Shown: one piece after another, positions 76 through 33,128 of the stretch
How positions within the stretch are numbered: position 1 is the stretch's first letter
Layout: every line of letters begins with the position of its first letter
DNA from: Prostheceraeus crozeri
Taxonomy: Eukaryota; Platyhelminthes; Polycladida; Euryleptidae
Assembly (NCBI GenBank): GCA_907163375.1
Contig: CAJQUW010003017.1
Coordinates: forward strand, 230,010-294,009
DNA length: 64,000 bases
Reading direction: 5' to 3'
Notes under the pieces: generated by a model
Databases searched by the model: none
Seen by the model: only the letters and a program-made list of their open reading frames with translations
What the model was told of the DNA's origin: nothing
Program-made: the position numbers and the translations under genes

Positions 76-102
76 GGGCGAAGCCCTAGAACATTCGGTT
101 CG
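76..102. repeat. Double-hairpin element, copy A
   Basis: GGGC-GAA-GCCC (76-86) is followed by the stem GAAC/GTTC around ATTCG (89-101). It overlaps the stop codon and last codons of the 86-910 gene. In the complete element the GGGC stem is kept (17200-17210) but the partner hairpin has a different sequence. Confidence 0.75.
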
Positions 103-15019: not shown

Positions 15020-15025
15020 CCCGTG
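15020..15025. repeat. Target site duplication, left (CCCGTG)
   Basis: CCCGTG directly precedes the first base of the inverted repeat and is repeated exactly at 33123-33128. Six bases is the size made by Polinton integrases. Confidence 0.93.
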
Positions 15026-16368: not shown

Positions 16369-17190
16369 ATGGATAAAATTAAAGCTGATAATCAAAAAAG
16401 AATTAAACAATTAGAAGAGTTAATCAAACAAAGAAATATTATGAAAGAAAATCATCTTCAACATAGAATGATAAAAGCTGGCATTCAATCTGATATGTTT
16501 GAAAAAATGCAGCAAACCGAGCAAGTAAAAACTGATTTTGAGAAAACTATGAAACCATTTAAAACTCTTGAAAAAGAAAGTACAAATAATGATAAACAAA
16601 TTGATATAACAGATCCAGAGCACAAAACTATATTAGATGACTATGGATTACTAGAATCAAACATTAATAAGAAATTACCAAAATCTATGCAATTTGAACA
16701 TTCTATTTCATTTATAGATGGAAAAATAATACCTAGATTTTATCTCGGTCAAAAAGAAATATTTCCACAACCTTTTCGAGGTATAATTTTTTCACCAGAT
16801 AAATCTCCTTTTAATTTAGATAGAAATTTTGTTGATCTTTTAAGAGGAGCAGCTTTAAATAATTATGCTGTAGAAGATCTCATAAAATATAAAGCTATGT
16901 TAGACAGAGTTGGTGCAGTAAAATCTCTTAGACGTTATAAACAATTAGAAAATTTATTATCAACGGGAGTTAGAGTAGGGAAAGGTTTATCTGAAAAACA
17001 GAAAACTGAAACAACCATATTTTTACCAGATGATCCACAAGAATTACTAAATAGATTAAATATTTTAATATCTGCAATAAAAGAAGGACATAATTCTAGT
17101 TTCAATGAAATTCATGCTATATTGAAAAGACTGTTAGAAAAGAAGATTCTAAATGAAGAGGATTATAAAAGTGTAACCGGACATCTCTGA
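16369..17190 (+). CDS. Conserved Polinton hypothetical protein (copy B)
   Basis: 273 residues from the ATG at 16369, chosen because TATTTTAAAA precedes it; the frame opens to 16303. The N-terminal third is charged and helical with Lys/Glu/Gln heptads, and the rest is a compact-looking domain with a Pro-Gln-Pro-Phe-Arg-Gly segment. No catalytic motif is seen. It is conserved between both copies next to the penton gene, so a structural or assembly role is likely but unproven. Its C-terminal codons and stop come from a hairpin (17179-17195) that differs from the one in copy A. Confidence 0.75.
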   Translation: MDKIKADNQKRIKQLEELIKQRNIMKENHLQHRMIKAGIQSDMFEKMQQTEQVKTDFEKTMKPFKTLEKESTNNDKQIDITDPEHKTILDDYGLLESNINKKLPKSMQFEHSISFIDGKIIPRFYLGQKEIFPQPFRGIIFSPDKSPFNLDRNFVDLLRGAALNNYAVEDLIKYKAMLDRVGAVKSLRRYKQLENLLSTGVRVGKGLSEKQKTETTIFLPDDPQELLNRLNILISAIKEGHNSSFNEIHAILKRLLEKKILNEEDYKSVTGHL

Positions 17191-17210
17191 TGTCCTCCAG
17201 GGCTTCGCCC
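17179..17210. repeat. Double-hairpin element
   Basis: GGACAT-CTCTG-ATGTCC (17179-17195), four bases, then GGGC-TTC-GCCC (17200-17210). The first hairpin supplies the last codons and the stop of the preceding gene. Copy A has the same second hairpin but a different first one. Confidence 0.8.
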
Positions 17211-17294
17211 GTAGCTGAAATATGTTGTTGTTTTTAATTTTTTATAAAAAAAATATTTCATAAAAAAATGTTTATTCAAAATTTTAACTAAAAA

Positions 17295-18083
17295 ATGTGT
17301 TCAGCAGATTTAGACAAAATTAATAATCATTTAGAAAATCTAACAGAGATTTTGGGTTCATCAAAATTTAGTACGACATTAAAAATTATAACAACTACTT
17401 CATCACACACTTGTAATTTAGAACCCATTCTACATTTGGAACAAAATGAAAATTATCAAATTGCATTGACTAGTTTCTCTACATTTAACACTATTCAAAA
17501 CGTTATCAAAGATGTGAATGATCAATTTAGATATTCTACTGATAAAGGCAAAACATGGAAAATATTAACTTTTCTTCCTGGTTCTTACGAAGTTGAATCA
17601 ATATCAAATGAAATTAAGAGACATTTAGGTATACCATTTAAAGATAAGAAACAATTACATTTTGCAGTTGAACCGGCAGTTAATAAATTTTCTCTTACTT
17701 TAGACGAAAATCATCAAGTTGATTTTAATCATGATAGATCATTGTCAAAGCTATTAGGATTTAATAAACAAACCTATAGTCAAGGTTATCATTTAGGTGA
17801 GAAGATTCCAAAAATAACTGAAATAAATTCAATTGTTGTACATTGTGACATTATTGAAGGAGGATATATAAATGGTAAATTATCAAATTTAATATTCAGT
17901 TTTCCAGCTTTTACTGTACCCATTGGTTATAGATTAAATGTATTTCCCCAAACATTAATATATTTCCCTATTACAAGAAAAACTATTAACAACATTAACA
18001 TTAGAATCACTGATGAGAAAGGACAAGAAATAAATTTTGGAGGTGAAGAGATTATGATAGATCTTTTGGTTCGAGAGGTATAA
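17295..18083 (+). CDS. Penton-like minor capsid protein
   Basis: A 262-residue, beta-rich protein that fits the single jelly-roll penton of Polintons and adintoviruses in length and layout. An early segment reads Tyr-Gln-Ile-Ala-Leu-Thr-Ser-Phe-x-Thr-Phe-Asn, a middle segment Leu-Pro-Gly-Ser-Tyr-Glu-Val-Glu-x-Ile, and a late segment Ile-(Arg)-Ile-Thr-Asp-Glu-Lys-Gly-Gln followed by Phe-Gly-Gly-Glu-Glu-Ile. These correspond to family hallmarks (a Gly-Ser-Tyr-Glu turn and a C-terminal Asp-x-x-Gly then Arg/Gly-Gly-Glu strand pair). Pentons occupy the five-fold vertices of the icosahedral shell. The gene lies just before the packaging ATPase. Confidence 0.8.
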   Translation: MCSADLDKINNHLENLTEILGSSKFSTTLKIITTTSSHTCNLEPILHLEQNENYQIALTSFSTFNTIQNVIKDVNDQFRYSTDKGKTWKILTFLPGSYEVESISNEIKRHLGIPFKDKKQLHFAVEPAVNKFSLTLDENHQVDFNHDRSLSKLLGFNKQTYSQGYHLGEKIPKITEINSIVVHCDIIEGGYINGKLSNLIFSFPAFTVPIGYRLNVFPQTLIYFPITRKTINNINIRITDEKGQEINFGGEEIMIDLLVREV

Positions 18084-18149
18084 ACTCCCACGCGAAGCTA
18101 GAGAAGTTTAATTTTCTTCTTCTTCTTTAGAGACAAAAAATAAAAAAAT

Positions 18150-18177
18150 AAAAATAAAATTTTTTTATTAAAAAATG
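18150..18177 (+). promoter_or_regulatory. AT-rich start-context motif upstream of the ATPase
   Basis: TTTTTTTATTAAAAAATG directly precedes the ATG at 18175. Closely similar T-run then (A)TTAAAA-ATG strings precede the starts at 15534, 16369, 17295, 25181, 26863, 28335, 28858 and, on the minus strand, 23610, 25075, 30698 and 31115. It may be a shared core promoter or initiator of the element. Confidence 0.45.
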
Positions 18178-18941
18178 AGTGAATTACCTCCATTTAATAA
18201 AAAAAACTTAAATTTAATCATCATCCAAATTTATCTAATAAAGTTTTGTCAGTTATTTGTGGAAGATCAGGTTGTGGAAAAACGTATCTATTGTTTAAAA
18301 TTTTAACGACTCCAAATATTTTGGATTATAACAATCTTATAATTTATACAACAACGGCAGAACAACCCGTCTATCAATTTTTAAAATATGGATTTGAAAA
18401 TAATCTTAAAAAAACAGCAATTGCTTCATTATTCAAAGAATATGAAAAATCTGAAGATGAAGAAGAAATAAGTTCGTGGTGTGAAGAAGCAACAAAAAAT
18501 AATCAGTTAGTTGAAACCAATAAAAATAAGCATATAAAGATACAACTAATAGATGATAGTGGTAATATGCAAGATCCTAGTAAACTAGATAAAACAATGA
18601 AACATTGTGTAATTTTTGATGATTGTGTTAATGATAGAAATCAGTCAGTTCAGAGAAATTATTTCACAAGAGGTAGACATAATAACTGTAGTGTTTTTTA
18701 TTTAACACAAAGTATGTATTCATTAGACGGAAGTGTTATTAGAAAGAATGCAAATATATTTATACTATTTGAAATAAATGCAAGAAACATAAGTGATTTG
18801 TTAAGAGATTTATGTGTAAGAAATAAAGATGAATTTAAACAATCGTGTAACAATGCTTGGTCAAAAGATTATGGCTTCATTACAATTAATGTTGATAAAA
18901 AAATTCATGATAGAGTTATAGAACATTTGTTTGCCGAGTGA
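18175..18941 (+). CDS. FtsK/HerA-type genome-packaging ATPase (frame interrupted once)
   Basis: The main frame (18198-18941) has a Walker A motif Gly-Arg-Ser-Gly-Cys-Gly-Lys-Thr (about 18258-18284) and a Walker B-like Val-Ile-Phe-Asp-Asp (about 18606-18625). Downstream Arg-Gly-Arg-His-x-Asn and Thr-Gln-Ser segments are usual in A32-like packaging ATPases of Polintons. It would pump DNA into the shell. The main frame has no ATG before Walker A. The only ATG in the usual start context (18175) is in another frame, and the two meet at A-AAA-AAC (18201-18207), where a -1 step is needed. Programmed frameshifting, transcriptional slippage, decay or a homopolymer read error are all possible. Confidence 0.8.
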
Positions 18942-19027
18942 TAAAAATATACAAATATAGTGTTATAATATTTTATTTTTTTTATTTTATGTATATATCA
19001 AATTTGTCTATCTTAGAAATTAGAAAA

Positions 19028-19960
19028 TTAAAAAGGTTCAGTAGCTATTCCATCAGGTAAAATTTTTCTTTTATCATCAAATGGATCTAATGCTAATTTA
19101 TGTTCTTCTTTTAAATACATGTTATGTTTTTTTGAATTAAGTCTATACTTACATGCTGTTTTTATTTCATTATTAAATAATACATTTTTATAATCTTGAA
19201 ATGTTATTTGATTAGCCACTGATGCCTTTGAAATTCCTTTTAATGTTTTATGTGTTTTAATATTATTAGTTGTATCATAACAGTAACATTTAGATTTTAA
19301 AAATATAGCTTCTGTTATGAAATCTTCATTTCCTTCTAATTCATCTTTTACTTTACATAAATCAGAAGGATGAATGATATCTTTTATTTTATTAATTTCT
19401 TCATCAAGTGAAGAATTATACGGTATTGTTAATTCTAAGAAACCAGAATCGGTATCTGTAAAGTGTAATTTATAGTTTTTGCCATAAGCAGGTGCTAAAT
19501 AATCATATATAAATCTATACATAAATACTTTAGCTAATTCTAATATAGTGAAACCAATAAAATTAAACTTATCATGTTTTACGCTAATTCGACGTAAATG
19601 TACAGCACATAGTTCATCACTAAATCTAGTAGTTCTTTTATATGTAGGTTTCCTTGTTAAATTTTGAAACCTATCTTTATCATAAACTATTTCAATATTT
19701 TGTCTATTACGCACATTTTCTAAAGTCTTACCATAAAATGCATTATTCATTAATTTGAAGAACACGTTTCCAAAATCATCTTTATTTCTTTTAGCTATTT
19801 TACGTTTTTCAATATTGAACTCTATATAATTTTTTAACCACCTAGATTTTTGATAAAATAGTTTTCGATGTATTTTGGTGAGAATCATTCCATGATCTAA
19901 ATACCAATCTAGCATTCTTCCTTCAACAACATACTTTCCTTTATTGCTTTGTGTTAACAT
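19028..19960 (-). CDS. Protein-primed DNA polymerase B, C-terminal part
   Basis: 310 residues with polymerase motif B (Lys-Leu-Met-Asn-Asn-Ala-Phe-Tyr-Gly-Lys-Thr, about residues 69-79) and motif C (Phe-Thr-Asp-Thr-Asp-Ser, about 165-171), the palm residues that bind metal and template. It overlaps the upstream frame by seven bases (19954-19960). The upstream frame reads CAA-AAA-AAC just before the overlap, so a -1 step at A-AAA-AAC (19969-19963, minus strand) joins the two. Alone this part lacks the exonuclease and motif A and could not act. Confidence 0.9.
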   Translation of the reverse strand: MLTQSNKGKYVVEGRMLDWYLDHGMILTKIHRKLFYQKSRWLKNYIEFNIEKRKIAKRNKDDFGNVFFKLMNNAFYGKTLENVRNRQNIEIVYDKDRFQNLTRKPTYKRTTRFSDELCAVHLRRISVKHDKFNFIGFTILELAKVFMYRFIYDYLAPAYGKNYKLHFTDTDSGFLELTIPYNSSLDEEINKIKDIIHPSDLCKVKDELEGNEDFITEAIFLKSKCYCYDTTNNIKTHKTLKGISKASVANQITFQDYKNVLFNNEIKTACKYRLNSKKHNMYLKEEHKLALDPFDDKRKILPDGIATEPF

Positions 19961-22900
19961 AAGTTTTTTTGTTGGTCTGTATTTTTAGGAATTAAAGATT
20001 TTTGATAATCTGAAAAATCTTCTATATTAGGAATTTTGTTTTCGGGACAGAAAGGAAAATATTTTGTTTTATCTTTTATTTCATCAGGGTATACTAAATC
20101 AACTTCATATATATAACCATGATTATAATTTCCATCATATGTTTTTTGATAATCAAGAATATTACACCATGACATTTCACCTGTTGGTAATTCTTGTATT
20201 ATGCAAGAAGAATATAAGCTATTAAAATCATAATATAACAAATAGTTTTCTCTCATGATTTCATCAACTGCTGCTTGACTATCTTCATTTGATATAAGTC
20301 CTACTATATTTTGATTAAACAATTTTATAAACTGATCACTTTCTTCTGGAGATAAAGGTTTCATTATTCCATAATCATCAGGATTTACTTTTTTATTGTA
20401 ACACTGTACATAACGATTACCTAAAACTGATGAAACTCCACCTCTAATTCCAGATTCAAAAAATAATAATTTATCATATGTATTTTCTTTATAATGTTTA
20501 AGTTTAACGGACTTTGTCCTAGAGCCATCGGCTTGAACGCCAGTATGTTTTAATCCTGCTAGCCATGTTAAACCTGGTGTAGAATAACAATAACATGGAT
20601 CTATTCCGTAATATTCTAAACGCATGTCACGAAAGTTTTCGAAAAGATCAGCTAGTATTAATACATCTATCTGAAGATATTTCATTGTATAATCATACAT
20701 TGTTTTACAATTTAACTCTCTCCAATTCTTTTCAGCTTCTGCATAGTCTTCTTCAGATAATTGTGATTGTTTCAATGTTGATTTAAATTTATTTATTGGA
20801 GGAAGTTGTTTTTCTTCCATAATTTTATTCACAGAATTAAAATCAGTCTTCGACTGTGAACCACAGGTTTTATCTCCAGTTATATCAGTCTTCGACTGTG
20901 AACCACAGGTTAAATATTCATACGGAAATATGCCTTTTAAAGGTTTTAAATTATATTTATTTAATATTTTACATTGTTCAGATTTCAAAGTTTTTCCCAT
21001 AACATCTAATGAATAAGGAGTAAAAAATCTAAATGCATCTAAAATTCTAATGCAACCTAATTGCATTGAAAAATATTCTTCTTCTGTTTTACGTAGTACA
21101 TTTATTTGTTGTTGTTGTAATTTTTCAGATGAAAATAAATCTTTCATTACTAGATGGAAATCATATTTAGAACCATTATAGAAATATAGAGGAACAGAGT
21201 TATATTTAAATTTATTAGCATTAAGATTACAAGAATTATGTGCTGCACCTCTATATAATCCATTTAGATGATCATGATCTTTTACCTTGACGGCAGAGCC
21301 GTCGCTTCGCTTATCAAGATATCTACCTTTGCCATTTTTATAATTTTTTGTAAATTCTTTTCCACAGTAATAACATTTTGTTTCATTAATAAAATTTAAT
21401 TTTTCTTTTTCTGTTAATGGCATCATTGGAATATTTGTTTCAAGCAATTGTGAAAAATAATTTTGTAATTCTTCTACTTTCTTTGTAAACATTTCTGAAC
21501 TATCTTCACCATAGTATTGAAAATATTCTGATTTAAATAATTCAGGATAATTTGAATGAATATACACGTACATTCCCCAACATAATGGTTTTTGTTCAAA
21601 TAAATATTTTTCTTTACTTTGTTCAGATGCACTTTTTTCATAATTACAAACCGAAGGTTCTACGGCTTGGCCCGTACCATTTTCAGAATTATAATTTTCA
21701 GAATCGGGCGAAGCCCTGGAACTTTCCGTTCGATTTTGTGTCATATTAACATTATATGCTTCAAAATCACAATAAATAGTAAAGGGTACTTTATTTTTCA
21801 AATAATGTCTATTATATATTAAATAATCATCTTTAGGAAAAGTATTTTCAACTGCTTCATTTTGTTGGCAATTCTCCAAATGTCTATTCATTTCTTCTTT
21901 AGTTCTAAAGCTCGTCATACATTGGAGACAAGGAAAATTGGCATTATCTGAAGTTTTTGTAAATATAGAAACATCTTTACACAATATAAAATGACCCTGA
22001 TAATATAATATATTCGCTTGTGCTGGCTGTTTTGTCTGTTCTAGTTTTTCAAATTTATCTTGATATATTTCATGTGTTTCATCAATTTCTTTTGTAAGAT
22101 TAAATGTATTTCGATGAAAATTTTGATTTAATATTTGTAACTGATAACTATATTCTTTATCATATTGTTCTTTATATTGTTGTAGACATTTTTTTAAAGA
22201 TTCATTTATTTTTTGATTGGTTTCATTTTCTTCATTATTTAATTCTTTATTGTCTTCATTTAATTTTTGAATCGTTTCTATCTTATTTTGATATTTATGG
22301 TCATATTCTTGTACTAATATTTTTGTTTGTTGTTGATAATCTGTTTTACATTTTTGTAAAATTTCATTTAAATTTTGTAATTTTTGTTGATATTCTAAAG
22401 ATAAAGATAAATAATCGGTATCATAATCATAATTATAATTACGTCCTTTATAATTATTATGACTAATCATTATTGGTGATAGTGTTTTTATAATTTCAAA
22501 TTTTTCAGTACATATTATATTTCCTTGGTAAAAAATATTATGATGCATGTAATTTCCCCTATCATTATATACTATTTCTGATTGACATAAATTTTTATTA
22601 TTCAAATAAATTTTTTTTGAATCTGAGTAAAGTGGAGTAATTTTACCAATAGAAACATAATTCACATTTAATTCAAAAACATTTACTTCTATTAAATTTT
22701 TATTCTTTTTATGAAACTTTTTTAACCTATTATAATCATATGGAAAGTCATCTAAGCCATCAGAAAGATCAAATTCATTTATGTATTCTTCTTTATTGTA
22801 ATGACTTAGTCTTTCTTTGTGATATTTTGCAGGATGTAAATGTGCTATAATACTCCACAGAAAACAATAATCATCTTCATTTTTTATGTTGATTATTTGT

Positions 22901-23610
22901 GGTGAACTGAAAGGCAAAGGAACATAACTACCACCAGTATTATTTTTATATTTATCAATTACTATTTTCTTAGATAGTATTTTAACAAATCTCCAACCAG
23001 ATTCACGTAACTGGGCTTCAATTATGCAATTTTCTAATTTAAGTATCATCGATTCAAATATGGGTTGTATATCATTTACATTATGAATTTCTTGTGAATT
23101 TGTAAAATGTCCTTGTATTATTTCTTCAGGAATTCCATCAGGTCCATTTTTTGTATAAAGTACTTCTACATTCATATAACATTTGAAAGATTTCTTAAAT
23201 ATTTTGAAAAAGTTTTTTAATACATTATAAAAAGTTTCATCGGTTTCATTATGTTCAACAGATTCATTAAATAAATATTTTATATCTATTACCGCTTCAT
23301 CGGTTCGTTCAGCTTCATCAAATTCATCAGTATCGCTAAATAAATATCTTCCATCTGGTAGGGTCTCATCTTCACTATTAAAAACTTTTTTATATTCCGA
23401 ATGTGAATAATCATCAAACATTTTTTTAACTTTTATATCAGTAGGTAATGTTTCTAGATAGTTTTTATAACTATTTAATTTTAATATATTTCCTTCATCA
23501 ACTCGTTCTACATTTTGTAAATGCAATTTAATATTTATATGAGATTGATAACTTCTTTTTGTTTGCAACTTTTTTTTACATAAGTTACAATAAAACTTGG
23601 TATTTTCCAT
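19954..23610 (-). CDS. Protein-primed DNA polymerase B, N-terminal and exonuclease part
   Basis: 1218 residues. In order: a C2H2-type finger (about 8-30), a long Gln/Glu/Lys coiled-coil (about 400-540), a second C2H2 finger (about 555-580), exonuclease motif I Asp-Phe-Glu (about 615), a Cys-x-x-Cys with Lys-Asp-His-Asp-His and His-x-x-Cys-Asn (about 747-790, resembling an endonuclease-VII type HNH zinc fold), exonuclease II (Tyr-Asp, about 815), exonuclease III (Tyr-x-x-x-Asp, about 975) and polymerase motif A Tyr-Asp-Phe-Asn-Ser-Leu-Tyr (about 1125-1132). It would replicate the element from a protein primer with 3'-5' proofreading. At least six hairpin elements lie inside the frame, including a tandem pair encoding a repeated nine-residue peptide. 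Motifs B and C are in the next frame (19028-19960). Confidence 0.9.
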   Translation of the reverse strand: MENTKFYCNLCKKKLQTKRSYQSHINIKLHLQNVERVDEGNILKLNSYKNYLETLPTDIKVKKMFDDYSHSEYKKVFNSEDETLPDGRYLFSDTDEFDEAERTDEAVIDIKYLFNESVEHNETDETFYNVLKNFFKIFKKSFKCYMNVEVLYTKNGPDGIPEEIIQGHFTNSQEIHNVNDIQPIFESMILKLENCIIEAQLRESGWRFVKILSKKIVIDKYKNNTGGSYVPLPFSSPQIINIKNEDDYCFLWSIIAHLHPAKYHKERLSHYNKEEYINEFDLSDGLDDFPYDYNRLKKFHKKNKNLIEVNVFELNVNYVSIGKITPLYSDSKKIYLNNKNLCQSEIVYNDRGNYMHHNIFYQGNIICTEKFEIIKTLSPIMISHNNYKGRNYNYDYDTDYLSLSLEYQQKLQNLNEILQKCKTDYQQQTKILVQEYDHKYQNKIETIQKLNEDNKELNNEENETNQKINESLKKCLQQYKEQYDKEYSYQLQILNQNFHRNTFNLTKEIDETHEIYQDKFEKLEQTKQPAQANILYYQGHFILCKDVSIFTKTSDNANFPCLQCMTSFRTKEEMNRHLENCQQNEAVENTFPKDDYLIYNRHYLKNKVPFTIYCDFEAYNVNMTQNRTESSRASPDSENYNSENGTGQAVEPSVCNYEKSASEQSKEKYLFEQKPLCWGMYVYIHSNYPELFKSEYFQYYGEDSSEMFTKKVEELQNYFSQLLETNIPMMPLTEKEKLNFINETKCYYCGKEFTKNYKNGKGRYLDKRSDGSAVKVKDHDHLNGLYRGAAHNSCNLNANKFKYNSVPLYFYNGSKYDFHLVMKDLFSSEKLQQQQINVLRKTEEEYFSMQLGCIRILDAFRFFTPYSLDVMGKTLKSEQCKILNKYNLKPLKGIFPYEYLTCGSQSKTDITGDKTCGSQSKTDFNSVNKIMEEKQLPPINKFKSTLKQSQLSEEDYAEAEKNWRELNCKTMYDYTMKYLQIDVLILADLFENFRDMRLEYYGIDPCYCYSTPGLTWLAGLKHTGVQADGSRTKSVKLKHYKENTYDKLLFFESGIRGGVSSVLGNRYVQCYNKKVNPDDYGIMKPLSPEESDQFIKLFNQNIVGLISNEDSQAAVDEIMRENYLLYYDFNSLYSSCIIQELPTGEMSWCNILDYQKTYDGNYNHGYIYEVDLVYPDEIKDKTKYFPFCPENKIPNIEDFSDYQKSLIPKNTDQQKNLC
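20509..20533. repeat. Double-hairpin element in polymerase frame
   Basis: GGAC-TTT-GTCC (20509-20519) and AGCC-ATC-GGCT (20523-20533), both perfect stems with three-base loops, inside the coding frame without breaking it. Confidence 0.75.
20844..20869. repeat. Double-hairpin element, tandem copy 1
   Basis: CAGTC-TTC-GACTG then AACC-ACA-GGTT. The same unit recurs 42 bp downstream. Confidence 0.8.
20886..20911. repeat. Double-hairpin element, tandem copy 2
   Basis: Identical in both stems and loops to 20844-20869. The pair encodes a peptide of nine residues twice in the polymerase. Confidence 0.8.
21289..21309. repeat. Hairpin element in polymerase frame
   Basis: GACGGC-AGA-GCCGTC (21289-21303), a perfect 6-bp stem, followed by the mini-stem GC-TTC-GC. 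It sits just upstream (in protein order) of the Asp-His-Asp-His motif. Confidence 0.65.
21649..21675. repeat. Double-hairpin element in polymerase linker
   Basis: AACC-GAA-GGTT (21649-21659) then the ACGG/CCGT stem (21662-21675) with a six-base loop. It falls in a Ser/Asn/Glu-rich linker just before exonuclease motif I. Confidence 0.65.
21706..21731. repeat. Double-hairpin element in polymerase linker
   Basis: GGGC-GAA-GCCC (21706-21716) then GAAC-TTTCC-GTTC (21719-21731). It is nearly the same as the copies at 76-102 and 24329-24354. Confidence 0.8.
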
Positions 23611-23629
23611 TTTTTAATTTTTTTAGAGA

Positions 23630-23782
23630 AAATTTGTGTTTTAATTTTAGATATAAACATTTTAATATCAAGGACTTGAGTGTTATTTTATATTATTATA
23701 TATTACACGTTCTTTAGTTATTTTTTTCTTTATCATATCAAGTTTAATCACATTAAGTTTTATCATATTAAGTTTTATCATA
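23630..23782. repeat. AT-rich imperfect tandem repeat between polymerase and clamp-like genes
   Basis: About five imperfect copies of ATCATATTAAGTTT (about 23738-23800) after an AT-rich polymerase leader. This is probably the polymerase promoter region read on the minus strand. Confidence 0.5.
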
Positions 23783-25075
23783 TTAAGTTTCATCATATAA
23801 TGTTTTATCAAAAGATAATTTAAATTTATTTTCACTAACTATTGATTCTTCATCATCATAAATTGATTCTTCATCATCATCATAAATTACACTTTTTGGG
23901 GATTGGATACCATTCCTGATAGGAATATCTAATTCTAAATTACATTTCTTATCTGATAATAATATAATAGAGAAAAATATTGGTCTTTGTTCTCTTTTGG
24001 AAAATTTAATAACTCCACTATAATCTGAATCACTTTTAGTTTTTATTAAAGAAGATAAAATTTTAAATTGATTAGATGTAAATCCTAATTTAAATTTTGT
24101 AGACCCGACACATAGTTGTCTAACAGTATCTTCAACTATACCATCATTATTATTTTCAATTGTAAGAAAATGAAATTTAGATAAATTTTTATAATTACTA
24201 ATATTTTTATAATCTTTTTTACCATTTACACCATTTTCAGATGTTTCTGAATCATCATCTATATTATCATCATCTATATTATTATCATCTATATTATTAT
24301 CATTATTATCATAAGATTCTTTAAGATCGGGCAAAGCCCTAGAACCTTCAGTTCGTTTATTATGATTATGATTATGGTCATTGTTAATAGTATAAGGTGT
24401 TGTCCACATATAAATTTTCTCTTGTTGAGCTAAACCATTTATATAAGATTTTAATAAATTAATATTTAAGTTGGAATATAATCCTATATACGTATCATCA
24501 TCATATCTTTGCGGCATTTCTAATGTTTCTTGTTTATAAATTGTATCTCTATAATATACCTGACATAATAATTCTTCATTATGTTTTTTACTCTCTATGT
24601 GAATGTTATATTGATTTTGTTCATCAACAAATAATCTTATTTTTTCTTTGGAAAAAGATTTTAATTTTTTAACTAATTCTTTAATATTGATATAATTAAT
24701 AATTTTATTTTCTATCCAATCAGTATTACTAATCGGCAAAACTGCTCTGATAAACCCATATACATTATTATGACCTATTATAACCATATTTTCTTTATTT
24801 AATTCAACATAAGCTACATCATTATATTTACTTACAATCTCCATAAATTTAATAAATGGATCCCCCGGAAATAAACAATAATTAGTTTCTATAGAAGGTA
24901 AACCTTTTGTTTGTTCTCTAAATATTTCGGCTTGTAATTGAAATAAAATATTAACATCTATACATGGATTATTATTATTATTATCAAAACATTTATTTTC
25001 AAATCCCGTTGATCTCGTCGAATAAGAACAGGATGATGCGGACGAATATAATTTTTTTAAATTTGGTTTTTCCAT
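23783..25075 (-). CDS. Hypothetical replication-associated protein, possibly sliding-clamp-like
   Basis: 430 residues starting at an ATG in the AAATAAAAAA-ATG context, directly upstream of and co-oriented with the polymerase. The body is mixed beta/alpha. The last third (Phe-Lys-Leu-Gly-Phe-Thr-Ser-Asn-Gln-Phe then Leu-Glu-Leu-Asp-Ile-Pro) has a strand-helix rhythm like a PCNA half, but I see no sure signature. An Asn/Asp-rich low-complexity stretch (about 24230-24310) and a hairpin element (24329-24354) split the protein, suggesting a tolerant linker between two domains. A clamp is suggested by position and fold rhythm only. Confidence 0.55.
   Translation of the reverse strand: MEKPNLKKLYSSASSCSYSTRSTGFENKCFDNNNNNPCIDVNILFQLQAEIFREQTKGLPSIETNYCLFPGDPFIKFMEIVSKYNDVAYVELNKENMVIIGHNNVYGFIRAVLPISNTDWIENKIINYINIKELVKKLKSFSKEKIRLFVDEQNQYNIHIESKKHNEELLCQVYYRDTIYKQETLEMPQRYDDDTYIGLYSNLNINLLKSYINGLAQQEKIYMWTTPYTINNDHNHNHNKRTEGSRALPDLKESYDNNDNNIDDNNIDDDNIDDDSETSENGVNGKKDYKNISNYKNLSKFHFLTIENNNDGIVEDTVRQLCVGSTKFKLGFTSNQFKILSSLIKTKSDSDYSGVIKFSKREQRPIFFSIILLSDKKCNLELDIPIRNGIQSPKSVIYDDDEESIYDDEESIVSENKFKLSFDKTLYDET
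24329..24354. repeat. Double-hairpin element in clamp-like frame
   Basis: GGGC-AAA-GCCC (24329-24339) and GAAC-CTTCA-GTTC (24342-24354). It lies beside the Asp/Asn-rich linker and keeps the frame open. Confidence 0.8.
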
Positions 25076-25180
25076 TTTTTTATTTTTATTAGAAAAAATT
25101 TTATTTTTATATTTTTATTAGAAAAAATTTTATTTTTTTATTTTTATTAGAAAAAATTTTATTTTTTTATTGTTTTAAAA
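25076..25180. promoter_or_regulatory. Divergent promoter region with three AT-rich repeats
   Basis: The 105 bp between the divergent clamp-like and fibre-like starts consists of about three copies of TTTTTATTAGAAAAAATTTT. Start-context motifs face outward at both ends, so it should drive both genes. Confidence 0.55.
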
Positions 25181-26068
25181 ATGATGTTGCCAAATGTTGG
25201 TGGAGGTGCATATATCCCGAATAATCGTGAATTAGAAATAGAGATAGAAAATTATATTATGAAAACTGGAGACGTTTTATCTGGTCCATTGCATCTTTCT
25301 ATTCTTCCGCAACAAAATACAGAGTTAACAAATAAACAATATGTTGATACACAAATCAATGATTTAAAGGAAAAATATATAAACGATGTTTTGGTTCCAC
25401 TGATGAATGAATTAAAGTTGCTTAAACTTAATGACAAGTCATTAAACGAAAAATTATTAAAACTTGATAAAAAGGATAGAGAGCTAAAAGCAGATATAGC
25501 AAAACTTTTTAAAAAGATTTCTGAACAATCAAAAGTTTTAATATTACTTTCTATAAATTTAAAATCTGCAGTCATTAAAAATAAACATCAGATAAAAATG
25601 TTAAAAGAACAATTAGAAGATGAAATAGAAAAACTTCCTGAAAGAATTAAAAAAAATTTAAAGCAGTTACAAACTACATTCCAAAAAAGTGTTGATGAAT
25701 TGAGTTCTAAAATTACTCAACAAATGAAAAAGATGAATAGAATAATAAATGAAGTAAACTCACTTAATCAAAGAGTTGATAAAATGAAAACTCTTAAAAT
25801 CAATTTAGAAAATGAATTAAAGAAAAATTTACAAGAAAACTCTAAAGAAAATAAAGAACAGTTAGATGCTATTAAAAGACAATTAGATGTTCTTAAAATT
25901 AAGTTAAATGCTCTTAAAACGGCGTTGAAGATGAATCAGCAGAAAATGCAAGTTAATAGAAAAGAAATTAAAGTACATCACACGCTGCTTGACGCAATAG
26001 ATAAAGTGCAACAGTCAATTAATAAAGTTATCTCGAAGTTGTTGTCCATTCACAAACGTAAATCTTAA
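25181..26068 (+). CDS. Coiled-coil fibre-like protein with a tail-fibre-type N-terminal motif
   Basis: 295 residues. After a Gly-rich start, residues about 27-60 read Met-Lys-Thr-Gly-Asp-Val-Leu-Ser-Gly-Pro-Leu and then Asn-Lys-Gln-Tyr-Val-Asp. This pattern is common at the collar of phage tail fibres (Gly-Asp-x-(Met/Leu)-Ser-Gly-x-Leu ... Lys-Gln-Tyr-Val-Asp). From about residue 65 to the end the chain is almost uninterrupted Leu/Lys/Glu heptads, so a long trimeric or dimeric coiled-coil is likely. It starts the structural plus-strand block. A vertex fibre or attachment shaft is my inference; no globular receptor-binding head is seen after the coil. Confidence 0.6.
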   Translation: MMLPNVGGGAYIPNNRELEIEIENYIMKTGDVLSGPLHLSILPQQNTELTNKQYVDTQINDLKEKYINDVLVPLMNELKLLKLNDKSLNEKLLKLDKKDRELKADIAKLFKKISEQSKVLILLSINLKSAVIKNKHQIKMLKEQLEDEIEKLPERIKKNLKQLQTTFQKSVDELSSKITQQMKKMNRIINEVNSLNQRVDKMKTLKINLENELKKNLQENSKENKEQLDAIKRQLDVLKIKLNALKTALKMNQQKMQVNRKEIKVHHTLLDAIDKVQQSINKVISKLLSIHKRKS

Positions 26069-26110
26069 CACATAGATATTTTTCCCAAAAGTCAAATTTA
26101 ATCCTAAAAA

Positions 26111-26701
26111 ATGCCTATAATTTATAAACACAATCTTAAACAATTTGCTTCAAATCAAAGAATTGCTCATGAACCACGTATGAATCCTGTTTATCATTAT
26201 GATAATAGAGAAACAGTCGGAACAGAAAAGTTCCTAGGCACCGCAGGTGCCGTTCACACGGAAGGAGCTGGGATCTTCTCTGGTATTGGAAGTATCGTTA
26301 ACTTAATTAAAAATAATAAAGATTTGATTACATCTGCTGCAAAAGGAGAAGCTGCTATAGGTAGTACAGCTAGTGCAATATCAAATGCTGTCAAGTCTCA
26401 AAACGAATTAAAACAACTAGAAGCTATTCGTAAACTTAGGAATGATTCCGAAGAACTAAAAAATTTAAAAAAACTTTCAGATGAAACAAAAAACAAAATT
26501 GCTAACATAGCTGTAGGGGGTGAAACCTTGAGGAGCGGAGATCCGTCTGATAGTAAACATAAGAAGAAATCAGGCGTAGCCATAAAACGTTCAATTGAAC
26601 CTGCGGTTCGTTCAATTGAAGAAATAAGAGGCAATGGTATTAATAGCAACCTTCGGTCTAACCAGCAAAGCTGTAGCGTAGCTGGTCTAGCAAAATTCTA
26701 A
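26111..26701 (+). CDS. Hypothetical Polinton virion or core protein
   Basis: 196 residues. A Gly-Ala-Gly-Ile-Phe-Ser-Gly-Ile-Gly segment (about 52-62) begins an amphipathic helix of the sort seen in membrane-active minor capsid or core proteins of adenovirus-like viruses, followed by an Ala-rich helix and a charged coil. The C-terminal third (from about 26514) is densely packed with hairpin elements and probably disordered. It sits between fibre-like and hexon genes. The role is inferred from position and the amphipathic segment only. Confidence 0.5.
   Translation: MPIIYKHNLKQFASNQRIAHEPRMNPVYHYDNRETVGTEKFLGTAGAVHTEGAGIFSGIGSIVNLIKNNKDLITSAAKGEAAIGSTASAISNAVKSQNELKQLEAIRKLRNDSEELKNLKKLSDETKNKIANIAVGGETLRSGDPSDSKHKKKSGVAIKRSIEPAVRSIEEIRGNGINSNLRSNQQSCSVAGLAKF
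26237..26261. repeat. Double-hairpin element in core-protein frame
   Basis: GGCACC-GCA-GGTGCC (26237-26251), overlapping CCGT-TCAC-ACGG (26250-26261). Confidence 0.7.
26573..26609. repeat. Double-hairpin element in core-protein frame
   Basis: GGC-GTA-GCC (26573-26581) and GAACC-TGC-GGTTC (26597-26609), split by TTCAATTGAA-type sequence that itself recurs on both sides. Confidence 0.7.
26649..26686. repeat. Compound hairpin element at end of core-protein frame
   Basis: ACC-TTC-GGT (26649-26657), then CAGC-AAA-GCTG and AGC-GTA-GCT, which can also pair as an outer ACCAGC/GCTGGT stem (26661-26686). It makes up the last codons before the stop. Confidence 0.65.
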
Positions 26702-26824
26702 AATATATTTTTTAGTAAAATTTTTCAGTAAAATTATTTTAGTAAAATTTTTTAGTAAAATTTTTTAGTAAAATTATTTTAGTAAAATTATTTTAGTAAA
26801 ATTATTTTAGCAGAATTTTTTGTG
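26702..26824. repeat. Tandem TTTTAGTAAAAT repeat upstream of hexon
   Basis: About nine imperfect copies of TTTTAGTAAAAT(T) fill the gap before the hexon start. It has no coding frame and may be promoter or transcript-end sequence. Confidence 0.65.
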
Positions 26825-26862
26825 TGTGAGAAAAACAAAAAGTCAAATTATTTTTTATAAAA

Positions 26863-28197
26863 ATGTCTTCGCTTATCGAAAATAAATTTAGATTAGACGA
26901 TCCTCCGTTCGTCAGTTGCAATCAAAAAAAGAATGACTATATAAGAATTGCTATGAATCCCGGATCTTCCAGTAGAGTAAATACTGGAGGTGATTTAATT
27001 TTTGAAGTTGATAATCAGCAGAGTTATATATATTTACCTGATTCGTTTTTACATTGTGAATATTCTTTATATAGTGATGCCAGTTTTACAACACCATTAC
27101 CTGATACCGATAATATTGCACTAGAGAATAATTTCTTTCCAAGATTATTTACACAAATGCGTTTAGATGTTGCAACTCAAAATATAGAAACAATAAGTGA
27201 TTCTCCAGGTGTAATTGATACAATGCTTAGATTTGTAACATTTGGTGAAAATAATAAAAAGTATAAAATCGAAGGTTGGTTTCCTGATACTAATGATGGT
27301 ATAATTGTTGATGATTTAACTCACGCTGGAACAGATGCAGCAGGAATTGCGAATGATGTAGAAAATATTGCAAAACATTTAAATAAAACAAATAATGATG
27401 CATATAAAGAAAGACGTGAATTTAACAAGAAAAGTAAACAGACAGTTAATTGGTCATTGTCTCCATTATTCGGATATTTAGATTATGATAAAATATCATA
27501 TCAATTAAAATTTAAATTAATAATTCATCGTACAGCAAATAATGAATTAATCTTTTTTGGTAAGACTGGGAAAAAAGCATATTTAAAAATTGATAGACTT
27601 GAATGGTGGATTAAGCATATTACTCCTAGTTTAGAGGTCGAAACAGCTATTGCAAAAAGATTAAATACTAACAAACCAATTCCAGTAAATTTTCTAAAGC
27701 GTACTGCTAGTTCAGTAACTTTTTCCGAACAAAGATTTAACTGGCATTTTACTAGAACTGCGAATACTCCAAGATATTTATTGCTAACTTTTCAAAGAAA
27801 TAATTCTCCAAGTTTTGATAAGAACAATAATCTCTTCCATATTAATACAATTCGAAGTTTACAAGTTTCATTAAATCAAACCCGTTATCCAATTGATCCA
27901 TTAAGATTCGATGATACCAATAATCAATTTATGGAAGGATATGATTCTTATCGAAATCTTTGTATAGAATTTGGAGTTGAACCACAATTAACTCCTGGAG
28001 ATTGGAGACATTTATATCCTGTTTTCTGTTTCGATTTAAGTGCATAATCTGAAGATATTATCAAGACTGGTTGTGATGTAATAATTAATATTGAAAAGAA
28101 AGATTCCACAACTTCATTGATGGCTTATGGTTTATTGCTAGAAGATGTAAAATATTCTATTGAAGTTCTTAATGGGAAGATGGCTAGGATAGGCTAA
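26863..28197 (+). CDS. Hexon-like major capsid protein, one internal stop
   Basis: The frame runs 444 codons with a single TAA at 28045-28047, 49 codons before the natural end at 28195-28197. It fits the double jelly-roll major capsid protein of Polintons and adintoviruses: an early Ile-Tyr-Leu-Pro-Asp-Ser block, an Asn-Asn-Phe-Phe-Pro-Arg-Leu-Phe segment, a central Trp-Ser-Leu-Ser-Pro-Leu-Phe-Gly segment and a late Tyr-Asp-Ser-Tyr-Arg-Asn-Leu block. Trimers of this protein make the capsid faces. The tail after the stop stays strand-like and in frame, so the stop is recent or is read through. It follows the core protein and precedes the small hydrophobic protein. Confidence 0.85.
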
Positions 28198-28204
28198 AGA
28201 CAGA

Positions 28205-28217
28205 GGAGCTTCGCTCC
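28205..28217. repeat. Hairpin element after hexon
   Basis: GGAGC-TTC-GCTCC, a perfect 5-bp stem with the TTC loop common in this family, 7 bp after the hexon stop. It could also act as a transcript-end structure. Confidence 0.65.
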
Positions 28218-28238
28218 GATAAATTAATTTAATTTTTT

Positions 28239-28334
28239 TTCATAACTAGAATAGATTAAAAAATTCTTAACTTACAATTTTTCATAACTAGAATAGATTA
28301 AAAATTTTCGTAACATAAAATTTTTTTATTAAAA
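28239..28334 (+). promoter_or_regulatory. Upstream region of the small hydrophobic protein gene
   Basis: TTCATAACTAGAATAGATTA occurs twice (28239 and 28279), followed by TTTTTTTATTAAAA and the ATG at 28335. A paired upstream element plus the common start-context motif suggests a promoter. Confidence 0.4.
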
Positions 28335-28817
28335 ATGTCGCAACCGAAAAGTAATAATAATAAAACTGTTGAATTAAAATTACGTAATATTGTTGACAAA
28401 AATACCCCTAAAACTATTACGATTAACAAAAAAAAGTATTACATAAGTAAACCAATGATAGAGAATATTCAATTACAAGAAAAAAAGAATGGCGGGATTC
28501 TCCCATTAATTCCCCTAATAATAGGAGGCATAGCAGCAGCAGGAAGTGTTGCAGGTGGGACAGCTGGTATTGTCCAAGCAGTAAATAAAAATAAATCAGA
28601 GAAGGCAGCATTAGAAGAACAAAAACGTCATAATAGAGAGTTAGAGAAAGTTGCTAGGGGCGAAGGAGTAGTAGATAATTTTATTAGTAAATTAAAATTA
28701 GTTGATGAAGGAAAACGAGTACTTAAAAATATTCTCCACAATGTTGATGATTTAATTGAAATTAAAGAAACTAAAGATGGTTCTGGAATATATCTAAGTC
28801 CTAGTATGATTCGGTAA
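28335..28817 (+). CDS. Small hydrophobic core protein (adenovirus pX/pVI-like layout)
   Basis: 160 residues. A basic N-terminus is followed by Gly-Gly-Ile-Leu-Pro-Leu-Ile-Pro-Leu-Ile-Ile-Gly-Gly-Ile-Ala-Ala (about 53-68), continuing into a Gly/Ala-rich stretch, then a Lys/Glu coiled-coil. The Gly-Gly-x-Leu-Pro-Leu-(Ile/Leu)-Pro motif before a glycine-rich hydrophobic helix is shared by core proteins of adintoviruses and adenoviruses, which bind DNA or disrupt membranes after protease cleavage. It lies between hexon and PLA2-integrase. The function is by family analogy. Confidence 0.65.
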   Translation: MSQPKSNNNKTVELKLRNIVDKNTPKTITINKKKYYISKPMIENIQLQEKKNGGILPLIPLIIGGIAAAGSVAGGTAGIVQAVNKNKSEKAALEEQKRHNRELEKVARGEGVVDNFISKLKLVDEGKRVLKNILHNVDDLIEIKETKDGSGIYLSPSMIR

Positions 28818-28857
28818 AACATTTATTTTATCTTTTAAATTTTTTTTATCTTTTAAA

Positions 28858-30147
28858 ATGAATTCTACAAATTCCGAAAATTTAATTAAATTAAAAATTT
28901 CTAATTTAGATTTATTAAATTATCTATTAAACAAAAATAAAAACTCAAATTGTCAGCATATTGAAGGTGACATACAAAAAACATTAGAAAACTTTCCTGG
29001 CTTTATTTGGAGTAAATATTCGAAAGAAAAACATCTTCCTGGTCATTCATATACCGGTCCAGGAACTCGATTAGATATAAGACTAGATGAGAATAATAAT
29101 CCGAAACCAGGTGAAGAACCAATAAATAGAGTAGATGCCGCAGCTTACAGGCATGATTTAGCTTATCGAAATCATGATCTAAGTTCTGGACATGCAGCTG
29201 ATAAGAAGATGATTCAAGAATTAGATAGTATTCAAAATCCAACATTTAGAGAAAAAATTGAAAGAATGTTTGTTAAGAAAGCTTTACAAGCTAAAATATT
29301 ATTCGGTCAGGGTTTAAATGAAACGACAGCTAAGCTGTCTGAGAGCAACGCTCGAACCTACGCGTCTGAAATTCATAGGGAATACAGAAGGCCTAAATAT
29401 TTATTGAAAGTAAAAGTATTTAATAAAGATGATATTTGGAGTGCTGATCTTATTCATATGCCGAATGAAAAAGATTATAAATACGCATTGACCGTTATAG
29501 ATTTATATACACGATACGCTTGGGTAAAGCCTTTAAAAAATAAAAGTGGTCTATCAGTTAAATATGCGTTTGAAGAAATCTTTAAAGAAAGTAAAAGAAA
29601 GCCAAAAAAATTGTTTGTTGATAAAGGGTCGGAATTTTATAACCGAAACGTTCAGCCACTATTTGAAACTGTTTATTCAACTGAAAACGCAGGAAAAGCT
29701 GTAGTGATAGAAAGATTCAATCGGACGTTAAAAAATAAATTATTCAAGAAATTTACTGAGCAAAGAAATCAGAAATGGTTGAAGATATTACCAGGAATTG
29801 TAGAAGAGTACAATAATAAAGTTCATTCTGGTATTGAAGAAACTCCAAAGAATGCTTCTGACGACCCTGATTTGATAAGAAAAAAAATATTCGAGAATAA
29901 TTATTCGAATGAGAGTAATCCGAATTTGCAGAAACTTAAGCCGAAATTTAAAATTGGAGATAGAGTTAGAATATTTAAATATAAGAATAAATTTGAAAAA
30001 GGCTTCGTCGGATACTGGACGAAAGAGATATTTGAAATTTCTAAAATAAATCAAACTTATCCGATTACTTATGAAATTAAAGATTTAGATAATGAGGATA
30101 TCAGAGGCCGTTTTTATCAAAATGAATTACAACGAACTGATTTTTAA
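28858..30147 (+). CDS. Phospholipase A2-integrase fusion protein
   Basis: 429 residues. Residues about 60-125 form a parvovirus-type phospholipase A2 domain: calcium loop Tyr-Thr-Gly-Pro-Gly (65-69), Asp-Ala-Ala-Ala (93-96) and catalytic His-Asp-Leu-Ala-Tyr (99-103). Residues about 170-300 are a retroviral/Polinton integrase core with Asp197, Asp255 and Glu285. The C-terminal part (about 355-425) is the SH3/chromo-like segment typical of Polinton integrases. The usual N-terminal zinc domain is missing, with PLA2 in its place. A double-hairpin element lies exactly in the linker (29325-29353). The second Asp to Glu gap is 29 residues, where about 33-35 is usual, so strand transfer may be weakened. 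PLA2 acts in endosome escape in parvoviruses; integrase inserts the element. Confidence 0.88.
   Translation: MNSTNSENLIKLKISNLDLLNYLLNKNKNSNCQHIEGDIQKTLENFPGFIWSKYSKEKHLPGHSYTGPGTRLDIRLDENNNPKPGEEPINRVDAAAYRHDLAYRNHDLSSGHAADKKMIQELDSIQNPTFREKIERMFVKKALQAKILFGQGLNETTAKLSESNARTYASEIHREYRRPKYLLKVKVFNKDDIWSADLIHMPNEKDYKYALTVIDLYTRYAWVKPLKNKSGLSVKYAFEEIFKESKRKPKKLFVDKGSEFYNRNVQPLFETVYSTENAGKAVVIERFNRTLKNKLFKKFTEQRNQKWLKILPGIVEEYNNKVHSGIEETPKNASDDPDLIRKKIFENNYSNESNPNLQKLKPKFKIGDRVRIFKYKNKFEKGFVGYWTKEIFEISKINQTYPITYEIKDLDNEDIRGRFYQNELQRTDF
29325..29353. repeat. Double-hairpin element at the PLA2-integrase junction
   Basis: GACAGC-TAA-GCTGTC (29325-29339) and GAGC-AAC-GCTC (29343-29353), both perfect. 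It encodes the linker between the two domains of the fusion protein. Confidence 0.8.
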
Positions 30148-30175
30148 TTATCATTATTTTTGGAACTAACGTTTC

Positions 30176-30190
30176 GGGAATGAAATTCCC
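30176..30190. terminator. Stem-loop between convergent integrase and protease genes
   Basis: GGGAA-TGAAA-TTCCC lies in the 65-bp gap where the plus- and minus-strand genes converge. It could mark transcript ends on both strands; this is only structural evidence. Confidence 0.35.
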
Positions 30191-30196
30191 TTATTA

Positions 30197-30221
30197 GGCG
30201 TAGCCATAGAACCTACGGTTC
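30197..30221. repeat. Double-hairpin element at the protease 3' end
   Basis: GGC-GTA-GCC (30197-30205) and GAACC-TAC-GGTTC (30209-30221). The second stem overlaps the last codons and stop of the protease, much as at 76-102. Confidence 0.75.
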
Positions 30222-30698
30222 GTTCAATTCTAACATAATATCTAGAAATGGCACTCCTTCCTGTAATTTAAATAAAACATAAAGACATAATTTACCACAA
30301 TAAGTAGTTCCCGGTTTTTGAATTTGAAACGTATTATAAATTCCATTGCCAAGTATTTCTCTTACTTCATTCGTAGGTGGAAGTCCGTATGAGTCGAACC
30401 AATAGTTCTCAGCCTCCGGGCGGTCAAAATAATAATTAGAACAGTTTATATTTCTTTGTCCTGCTGACCAATGTACACCTTTTTCATCTGACGTATGAAG
30501 ATTCGTTATGAAATTTACAGTTTGAACTTTGTTCCGGGAACTGAAGGTTCCTGTCGGCTTATTTTTTAGGAATTGTAATTCGCCTCTCATTAGAACATGA
30601 AAATTCTTTATTCCTAATCGATTAGCGATTTTCTTTAGGTCGAAATTCGTTGTCGTTTGTGTTCCATATAATTTCAAAAACTCATTTATGTTGCTCAT
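30213..30698 (-). CDS. Adenovirus-type maturation cysteine protease (adenain-like)
   Basis: 161 residues from an ATG preceded by TTATTATAAA. Catalytic layout of the family: Val-His-Trp (His, about residue 77), Trp-Phe-Asp-Ser-Tyr-Gly (acid, about 101-103) and Tyr-Cys-Gly-Lys-Leu-Cys (about 132-138), with the second Cys in the nucleophile position after Gly. The length is a little shorter than adenain. It would cleave capsid and core precursors during virion maturation. It is the only complete minus-strand gene in the right part and converges on the integrase. Hairpin sequence forms its last codons. Confidence 0.85.
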   Translation of the reverse strand: MSNINEFLKLYGTQTTTNFDLKKIANRLGIKNFHVLMRGELQFLKNKPTGTFSSRNKVQTVNFITNLHTSDEKGVHWSAGQRNINCSNYYFDRPEAENYWFDSYGLPPTNEVREILGNGIYNTFQIQKPGTTYCGKLCLYVLFKLQEGVPFLDIMLELNEP

Positions 30699-33122: not shown

Positions 33123-33128
33123 CCCGTG
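33123..33128. repeat. Target site duplication, right (CCCGTG)
   Basis: Exact copy of 15020-15025. Confidence 0.93.

Follow-up and report, generated by a model that had tools for sequence, protein, structure and literature searches.

The window analysed here comprises 64,000 nucleotides of contig CAJQUW010003017.1 of the flatworm Prostheceraeus crozeri (positions 230,010 to 294,009). It contains a Polinton bounded by terminal inverted repeats (TIRs) and, at its left end, part of a second, inverted Polinton. Short GC-rich hairpins are scattered over the Polinton, including its genes, and had been described as a family of tiny double-hairpin elements by a reading of the sequence alone (termed the sequence-only reading). 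These hairpins are members of insertion element families. The elements are non-coding, measure 22 to 39 bp with a canonical length of 28 bp and usually consist of two GC-rich hairpins.

The type B DNA polymerase (PolB) of the window was identified via homologues, several of which carry the Pfam domain DNA_pol_B_2. Pfam matches in the Polinton were obtained for an A32-like ATPase, a double jelly-roll capsid protein and an open reading frame (ORF) with fused PLA2-like and integrase domains. The second Polinton (window positions 1 to 3850) belongs to the same family and lies inverted about 11 kb from the first. Its ORF 86-976 matches ORF 16303-17190, and its PolB is located at G000:C2500:223688-227242.

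Element types and hairpin enrichment

The usual unit consists of a 4-bp stem with a 3-base loop, a 2-base spacer and a 5-bp stem with a 3-base loop. In the commonest type, type A (28 bp, consensus CGGGCGAAGCCCT[AG]GAACnTTCnGTT[CT]G), a C is followed by the hairpin GGGC-GAA-GCCC, T[AG], the hairpin GAACC-TTC-GGTTC and a final G. Type B (37 bp) has the first hairpin of type A and GACATC-nGA-GATGTC as the second, while the stems of types A' (20508), C (20842 and 20884), D (21289) and E (arrays at 28809) differ from these. Types A and C are laid out alike (28 nt in all, with a 4-bp stem, a 2-base spacer and a 5-bp stem) in spite of different stems, so that pairing is kept while the sequence changes; across types A, A' and C the stems differ yet remain paired. 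Related 20-mers were found by repeat analysis at 21703, 24326, 26569 and 30193, and at least 7 different sequence contexts contain the exact canonical 28-mer. The type A core GGGCGAAGCCCTNGAACNTTC has 6073 exact matches (2940 + 3133) in the 2.05-Gb assembly and the type B core 1831 (927 + 904), with 0 matches for the reversed control in either case. A known structured RNA family was ruled out by the Rfam search, which gave 0 matches at the gathering score in window 15000-33200. The features are as follows:

75..102, plus strand: type A element, 28 bp, in the second Polinton (sequence match)
15022..15526, unstranded: left TIR of the Polinton, built of tandem repeats (inverted-repeat analysis)
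17177..17211, minus strand: type B-like element, hairpins GGACATC-AGA-GATGTCC and GGGC-GAA-GCCC (hairpin scan, copy comparison)
19957..23610, minus strand: PolB open frame, host of nine presence/absence sites
20158..20159, minus strand: empty target; type B (39 bp) in 2/13 copies
20508..20535, plus strand: type A' element, 28 bp, diverged stems, in PolB, AA-flanked (empty in L036, L037, L040, L082)
20842..20870, ends uncertain, minus strand: type C element, copy 2, in PolB (repeat analysis, copy alignments)
20884..20912, ends uncertain, minus strand: type C element, copy 1, in PolB (empty in L036, L077, L079, L082)
21226..21375, minus strand: endonuclease VII-like PolB segment (CxxC ... DHDH ... 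CN), candidate enzyme (homologue alignment, family match in relatives)
21289..21310, minus strand: type D element of 22 bp (+ AA), within the endonuclease VII-like part of PolB (filled in 5/13 copies)
21647..21674, minus strand: type A element, GGGC-CAA variant, target TA (filled in 10/13 copies)
21705..21732, plus strand: type A element in PolB, AT on both sides (filled in window)
23258..23259, minus strand: empty target; type B in 3/13 copies, type A in other loci
23291..23292, minus strand: empty target; type A in 2/13 copies
23359..23360, minus strand: empty target; filled in other copies by type A (30 bp), by type B (39 bp) or by the two in tandem
24328..24355, plus strand: type A element, GGGC-AAA variant, in ORF 23783-25075 (flank comparison)
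26214..26261, plus strand: hairpin insertion GGCACC-GCA-GGTGCC, ORF 26111-26701 (36-bp presence/absence)
26519..26545, plus strand: hairpin insertion GGAGC-GGA-GCTCC, 24-27 bp, stem mutated in window copy (copy alignments)
26570..26611, plus strand: hairpin insertion, 42 bp (missing in L042, L043, L046)
26635..26682, plus strand: hairpin insertion, 48 bp (missing in L043, L045, L046)
28205..28217, unstranded: single hairpin GGAGC-TTC-GCTCC, intergenic (strict scan)
28662..28663, plus strand: empty target; 42-bp type B insertion in L042, L115, L118
28808..28840, plus strand: site of type E arrays (AT-spaced) in other copies
29324..29361, plus strand: double hairpin GACAGC-TAA-GCTGTC / GAGC-AAC-GCTC, between PLA2-like and integrase domains
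30193..30221, plus strand: double hairpin GGC-GTA-GCC / GAACC-TAC-GGTTC, intergenic
30393..30422, unstranded: double-hairpin insertion, 30 bp, ORF 30213-30698 (missing in L042, L045)
30522..30560, unstranded: double-hairpin insertion, 39 bp, ORF 30213-30698 (copy alignments)
32626..33126, unstranded: right TIR of the Polinton (inverted-repeat analysis)

A strict scan (stem of at least 4 bp with at least 3 GC, loop of 3-5) of the Polinton core (15530-32620) gave 24 hairpins compared to 4.4 (standard deviation 2.2, maximum 11) in 100 dinucleotide shuffles. With triloops only, 20 hairpins were counted versus 1.69 (standard deviation 1.38, maximum 5, again in 100 dinucleotide shuffles), and with at least 4 GC in the stem 8 versus 0.11. 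Close pairs (at most 35 nt apart) numbered 6 in the core versus 0.02 in 200 base-composition shuffles; the same kind of shuffle gave 0.16 for the left host flank, where 1 pair was found, and 0.35 for the right one, where there was none. Both the departure from chance and the pairing claimed by the sequence-only reading were thereby confirmed. At 14 of the 15 places it had listed, a strict match lies at the place or at most 30 bp away; the one at 21649 falls below the GC threshold and is nevertheless genuine, as it is missing from some copies. The stems, given as 3-6 bp, are 4-7 bp long in the strict scan. Among 44 distinct triloop hairpins in the Polinton pieces, 17 loops are GNA and 10 are AAA, 25 of these 27 being closed by C-G; such loops make up 27/44 here versus 6/23 in host flanks and 14/82 in the shuffled core. 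GNA and AAA loops closed by C-G form very stable DNA mini-hairpins.

Several features of the surrounding sequence were recorded alongside. The PolB frame ends early in the window copy and in the neighbouring copy L035, and a second ORF (19028-19960) follows here; many other PolB copies read about 1500 amino acids, unlike these two. ORF 28858-30147 fuses the PLA2-like domain (residues 57-137) to an integrase core (191-268), with hairpin elements in the linker. AT-rich tandem repeats lie between Polinton genes at 26705-26830 and 25074-25181 (units of 13-14 bp and 29 bp), the former differing in length between Polinton copies. The host flank contains a 449-residue Band 7/SPFH ORF in a single uninterrupted frame (6649-7998), and reverse transcriptase ORFs are found in the same window as the Polinton.

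Insertion sites, target duplication and arrays

For the comparison of PolB, 12 of 38 listed PolB places were picked for their spread in length and identity, and 10 of these loci were used for a 4.6-kb piece downstream. Presence/absence sites were judged by eye, and alignment rows showing no hairpin (slippage in AT-rich sequence, codons repeated in tandem) did not enter the element counts. Among the 13 PolB copies, nine presence/absence sites were found, filled in 5, 2, 3, 10, 5, 12, 10, 10 and 2 of 13 copies. Further sites were present in the downstream piece (ten other copies), where the capsid gene (26863-28047) had no gap block of at least 12 bp. The clean presence/absence between homologues that the sequence-only reading had named as support was thus found at many sites across Polinton copies. 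The repertoire is larger than the window shows, because other copies are filled at 23360, 23292, 23259, 20159 and 28663. Among the copies compared, no empty allele was found for site 21705, nor for a lone type A at 17177. Conserved coding hairpins were ruled out by outgroup polymerases, as the metagenomic polymerases P0008, P0009, P0011 and P0013 have no inserts where they can be aligned to the window PolB.

Grouped by their flanks, 46 type A copies (first 28 loci and the window) fall into few sites, most of which are empty elsewhere. The recurrent empty allele is 30 bp shorter (27-base core + 3), and other length offsets occur in repetitive TIR and AT-rich flanks. A type A insertion thus consists of 28 bp and a duplicated A/T dinucleotide, 30 bp in total. 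At a TIR site that is empty in the window and filled in other copies, the change from the empty ACAATTTTC to ACAAT[28 bp]ATTTTC fixes the duplication as AT, and at site 23292 L024 and L027 give an unambiguous duplication of TA. The flanking dinucleotides of 61 element copies were identical in 43, differed in one base in 17 and in two bases in 1. An A/T dinucleotide (TA, AT, TT or AA) precedes the element at 100/100 listed places, in 16 distinct 7-base contexts; these are 100 of 337 element places in contig order, as 100 of 1831 were listed for type B matches.

Occupied targets are used again. Site 23360 carries type A in some copies, type B in others and both, as TA[B]TA[A]TA, in L051, L052, L055 and L060, likewise with a shortened B in L056; L031 and L017 represent the allele without the second element. 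At site 17177, type A adjoins the type B-like element ([B]TT[A]TT) in L006, L053, L071 and L076, the window having the allele without type A, and at site 28809 up to four units stand in a row with AT between each (L048). Tandem units are one A/T dinucleotide apart (TA..TA, TT..TT or AT).

Reading frame, second Polinton family and confinement

Hairpin-bearing insertions are a multiple of three in 31/31 site/length classes within coding sequence and in 2/13 outside genes, in line with the claim of the sequence-only reading that inserts inside genes keep the frame. For insertions without hairpins the corresponding values are 9/9 and 15/30, and Polinton genes are under frame selection whatever is inserted. 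Type A measures 28 + 2 bp outside genes too, in the TIR, so its length is gene-compatible in itself. Both element orientations occur within one gene, and most polymorphic sites found are in coding frames.

A second Polinton family, found with a more distant polymerase as query, has a PolB with 64-70% protein and 75-83% DNA identity to that of the window, depending on the aligned segment. Type A' occupies the same position there, with 30/30 identical nucleotides in L077 and L079 and one difference in L081, and its hairpins are also present in L078 and L080; the site is empty in L082. A co-conversion tract was looked for, and the flanks of the A' insert are equally conserved in filled and empty copies. 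Type D, recognised by its hairpin, occurs in L077-L081 and not in L082, and type C in L081 only. Type B is found in the 3' part of the second-family PolB (L081:4046), at a site also filled in first-family L119, near window 19260. A 31-bp double hairpin with CTAGTC-repeat flanks (L077:4389) is present in L077, L078, L080 and L081; it is missing in L079, which is 99% identical to L077, and this may represent a deletion between the repeats instead of an empty site. The few exact sequences in thousands of genome copies, the A/T duplication and the sharing by two Polinton families were beyond the reach of the window, to which the sequence-only reading was limited.

Recombination between Polintons was measured on the PolB copies of the window and L029-L040. 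The share of SNP (single-nucleotide polymorphism) pairs in which all four combinations occur increases with distance, from 12% at <50 bp to 54% at 600-1500 bp. Of the insertion-site pairs, 11/36 also show all four. Identical units at unrelated sites together with tandem insertions require transposition.

All 62 loci chosen only by the type A or type B pattern (28 + 12 + 14 + 8, a sample of about 7900 matches) match the window's Polintons beside the element, with a match to both flanks at 57 loci and to one flank at 5; they do not amount to 62 independent insertions, as L004 overlaps L005 and some contigs or Polintons hold more than one of the loci. No flank of the 62 loci matched the window's host DNA. 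The insertion and the Polinton context are well supported. The mitochondrial piece of the assembly (4.3 kb) contains 1 hairpin with 0.8 expected, hence no excess; the mitochondrial COX1 frame (L083:1222-3060, code 5) extends about 65 amino acids upstream of the conserved start region. For the single COX1 match of the assembly, three relatives without a species name score best (76-90%), and the nearest named ones are the polyclad flatworms Pseudostylochus and Stylochus (71%), which points to a probably free-living flatworm as host. In IMG/VR, 0 matches were obtained for the type A core with 19 fixed bases and for the type B pattern, the type A core with 16 fixed bases gave 30 matches, none of them followed by hairpin 2, and a peptide pattern for PolB relatives matched 36 stretches, none of which was confirmed.

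Mode of spread and comparison with known systems

The elements are probably minute non-coding mobile elements that parasitise Polintons. The unit codes for nothing, so enzymes must act in trans, and since every examined copy resides in a Polinton, spread probably takes place during Polinton replication or recombination. Insertion occurs at an A/T dinucleotide with duplication of the latter, at times beside a resident element, which gives rise to arrays. Single strands exposed in protein-primed Polinton replication could fold into hairpins, and these might enter a 2-nt staggered break either through copying or through excision and joining. Selection purges frame-shifting insertions, so that the copies surviving in genes probably appear in the proteins as short linker peptides. 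The enzyme could plausibly be the structure-specific endonuclease VII-like domain of the Polinton polymerase. Among PolB relatives, the Endonuclease_7 family matched P0013 (25.8 bits, cut-off 23.6), P0008 (23.4), copy L036 (20.6) and P0009 (14.8). The CxxC, DHDH and CN residues are invariant in five aligned polymerases, the type D insertion splits this segment in the window PolB, and a PDB sequence search with P0013 retrieved no endonuclease. At cruciforms and at hairpin junctions, T4 endonuclease VII makes cuts that are offset by a short distance; such cutting would suit the 2-bp duplication.

Possible, albeit doubtful in this full form, is a hyperparasite confined to Polintons, in which the 22-39 bp elements would be copied as folded strands by the Polinton replication machinery and opened or cut by the endonuclease VII domain of the polymerase, the length of 28 + 2 = 30 bp keeping the frame. 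If true, these hyperparasites would come close to the smallest size possible for mobile DNA.

Several points weigh against spread as Polinton parasites by this mechanism. Only P0013 exceeds the Endonuclease_7 cut-off, and the window PolB itself gave no match at E<=0.01. To our knowledge, such elements are not known from insect Mavericks. The domain therefore cannot be the whole answer, as an endonuclease VII-like domain is present in insect Maverick PolB too, according to the available part of PMC5803895. The advantage of single units over shuffles in folding as single-stranded DNA is only modest (z of -1.5 to -2.1 for eight units). The slides over 44 site/length classes, a rough guide as they pool alignment-derived classes with some sites under more than one length or bin, are 3 bp in 12, 0 bp in 11, 1 bp in 7, 2 bp in 5 and others in 9; with many slides of at least 3 or of 0-1 bases, a duplication of 2 bp versus 3 bp is settled at few sites only. 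Coding insertions without hairpins are in frame as well, so that frame keeping belongs to the genes and not to the elements, and as Polinton copies recombine, same-site sharing between the families may be due to recombination. The search of the assembly was limited to exact type A and B cores, and diverged host copies could escape it. Against the hairpin enrichment itself stands the left flank (3000-15000), which is also mildly enriched for loops of 3-5 (24 vs 14 at GC>=3, 8 vs 1.7 at GC>=4) and includes the end of the second Polinton, to about 3.8 kb; in the right flank the count is near chance.

It is unlikely that mobility ended long ago and that presence/absence reflects recombination among Polinton copies with old insertions. 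The heavy recombination of SNPs and insertion sites and the same sites in two Polinton families fit such a history. The exact canonical 28-mer is, however, found at several unrelated sites while the flanks differ by several per cent, type A stands beside type B in some copies only, and sites are filled in just 2/13 copies.

An RNA route, by which a structured element transcript is reverse transcribed, for instance by enzymes of host LINEs (long interspersed nuclear elements), and inserted at nicks, with hairpins acting in the RNA, is rather improbable. The location of copies in genes and the reverse transcriptase ORFs in the window are compatible with it. On the other hand, the unit is a fixed 28 bp with no tail or truncation in the alignments, LINE products should reach host DNA too, yet all 62 pattern-chosen loci lie in Polintons, and the preference for GNA/AAA loops is that of stable DNA mini-hairpins. 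For yeast GC clusters, an RNA route has been suggested (PMC4478555, in the part available).

Regulatory hairpins duplicated under selection, serving as transcript ends or translation signals, are very improbable. Some hairpins are intergenic and hairpin transcript ends are known in mimivirus and virophages, but most polymorphic sites found are in coding frames, high-identity copies lack them and both orientations occur in one gene. Translational bypassing elements (byps), skipped by the ribosomes, have still less to recommend them: mitochondrial byps are short inserts in genes too (PMC5009743, available part), yet with 31/31 coding classes in frame ribosome skipping is not needed. Chance, base composition or repeat slippage, which some nearby AT-rich indels resemble (long duplications, no hairpin), is refuted by the hairpin enrichment over shuffles (20 vs 1.7), the thousands of exact copies with controls of 0 and the presence/absence with short duplications that are not repeat units.

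Known classes of mobile DNA were compared as well. Tc1/mariner elements use TA only as target, and IS200/IS605-type or REP elements moved by Y1 transposase cause no target duplication. In the Polinton elements TA, AT, AA and TT are all used, which rules out the superfamily-specific target of a MITE (miniature inverted-repeat transposable element), and the 2-bp duplication at empty sites speaks against IS200/IS605-type or REP elements. The elements of Pandoravirus salinus are MITEs, small and non-autonomous, of a known DNA-transposon family. DNA transposons in this viral genome are reported in the accessible part of PMC4495683. The Polinton elements resemble them as small non-autonomous elements in a viral genome, but the unit is far shorter and is not a MITE because it is without terminal inverted repeats, having ends of C...G only and inverted repeats that are the two internal hairpins.

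Rickettsial palindromic elements are palindromic inserts in ORFs, larger and bacterial. The Polinton elements share with them, by general description, the in-frame palindromic inserts in genes (31/31 coding classes) and differ in their smaller size and non-bacterial host. Of the two analogues proposed by the sequence-only reading, mitochondrial double-hairpin elements proved the better comparison, the dinucleotide duplications and tandem arrays being more like yeast GC clusters than like the rickettsial elements. Its statement that none had been described for Polintons or adintoviruses agrees with open-licence PMC papers, in which no report for Polintons, Mavericks or adintoviruses was found. 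In Magnusiomyces mitochondria, byps are blocks of extra nucleotides that interrupt protein genes at 81 places (PMC5009743, as far as available); these break the frame and are skipped by ribosomes, whereas the Polinton elements keep the frame.

Hairpin micro-elements without a known enzyme are a long-standing puzzle of mitochondrial genomes. That the virus-like transposon of an animal holds thousands of copies, with clean empty sites and a duplication of defined kind, suggests that the phenomenon is not organelle-bound, and it becomes testable with a small set of candidate enzymes. The findings further point to a layer of parasites on parasites and to an origin of new linker peptides for viral proteins, and the in-frame pattern is evidence that Polinton genes stayed under selection. 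A Polinton as host for hairpin micro-elements is unexpected; the elements resemble a known kind.

Tandem arrays of yeast mitochondrial GC clusters were reportedly treated by Weiller in 1989, going by the title. GC clusters are short GC-rich palindromic units with short flanking repeats, present or absent in relatives and capable of unit merger (available part of PMC4478555), and some are located in the var1 gene (excerpts of PMC2800124). Like these (e.g. GC42), the Polinton elements are GC-rich units of one or two hairpins with near-identical copies at many sites, presence/absence, a short duplication and arrays. They are unlike them in residing in Polintons instead of mitochondria, in flanks of A/T dinucleotides compared to AG or ACT in yeast, and in 28-bp units that are in frame in several genes; being non-mitochondrial, they are not members of the GC clusters, and the likeness is one of behaviour. 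The double hairpin elements of fungal and the repetitive hairpin-forming elements of sponge mitochondrial DNA are dispersed, sometimes in genes, and kept in the transcript, as stated in the same excerpts (PMC2800124). With these organellar elements the Polinton elements share, by description, hairpin or double-hairpin units that are dispersed and in part located in genes. Yeast mitochondrial GC clusters and the fungal and sponge double-hairpin elements thus appear to be the closest analogues of the Polinton elements.

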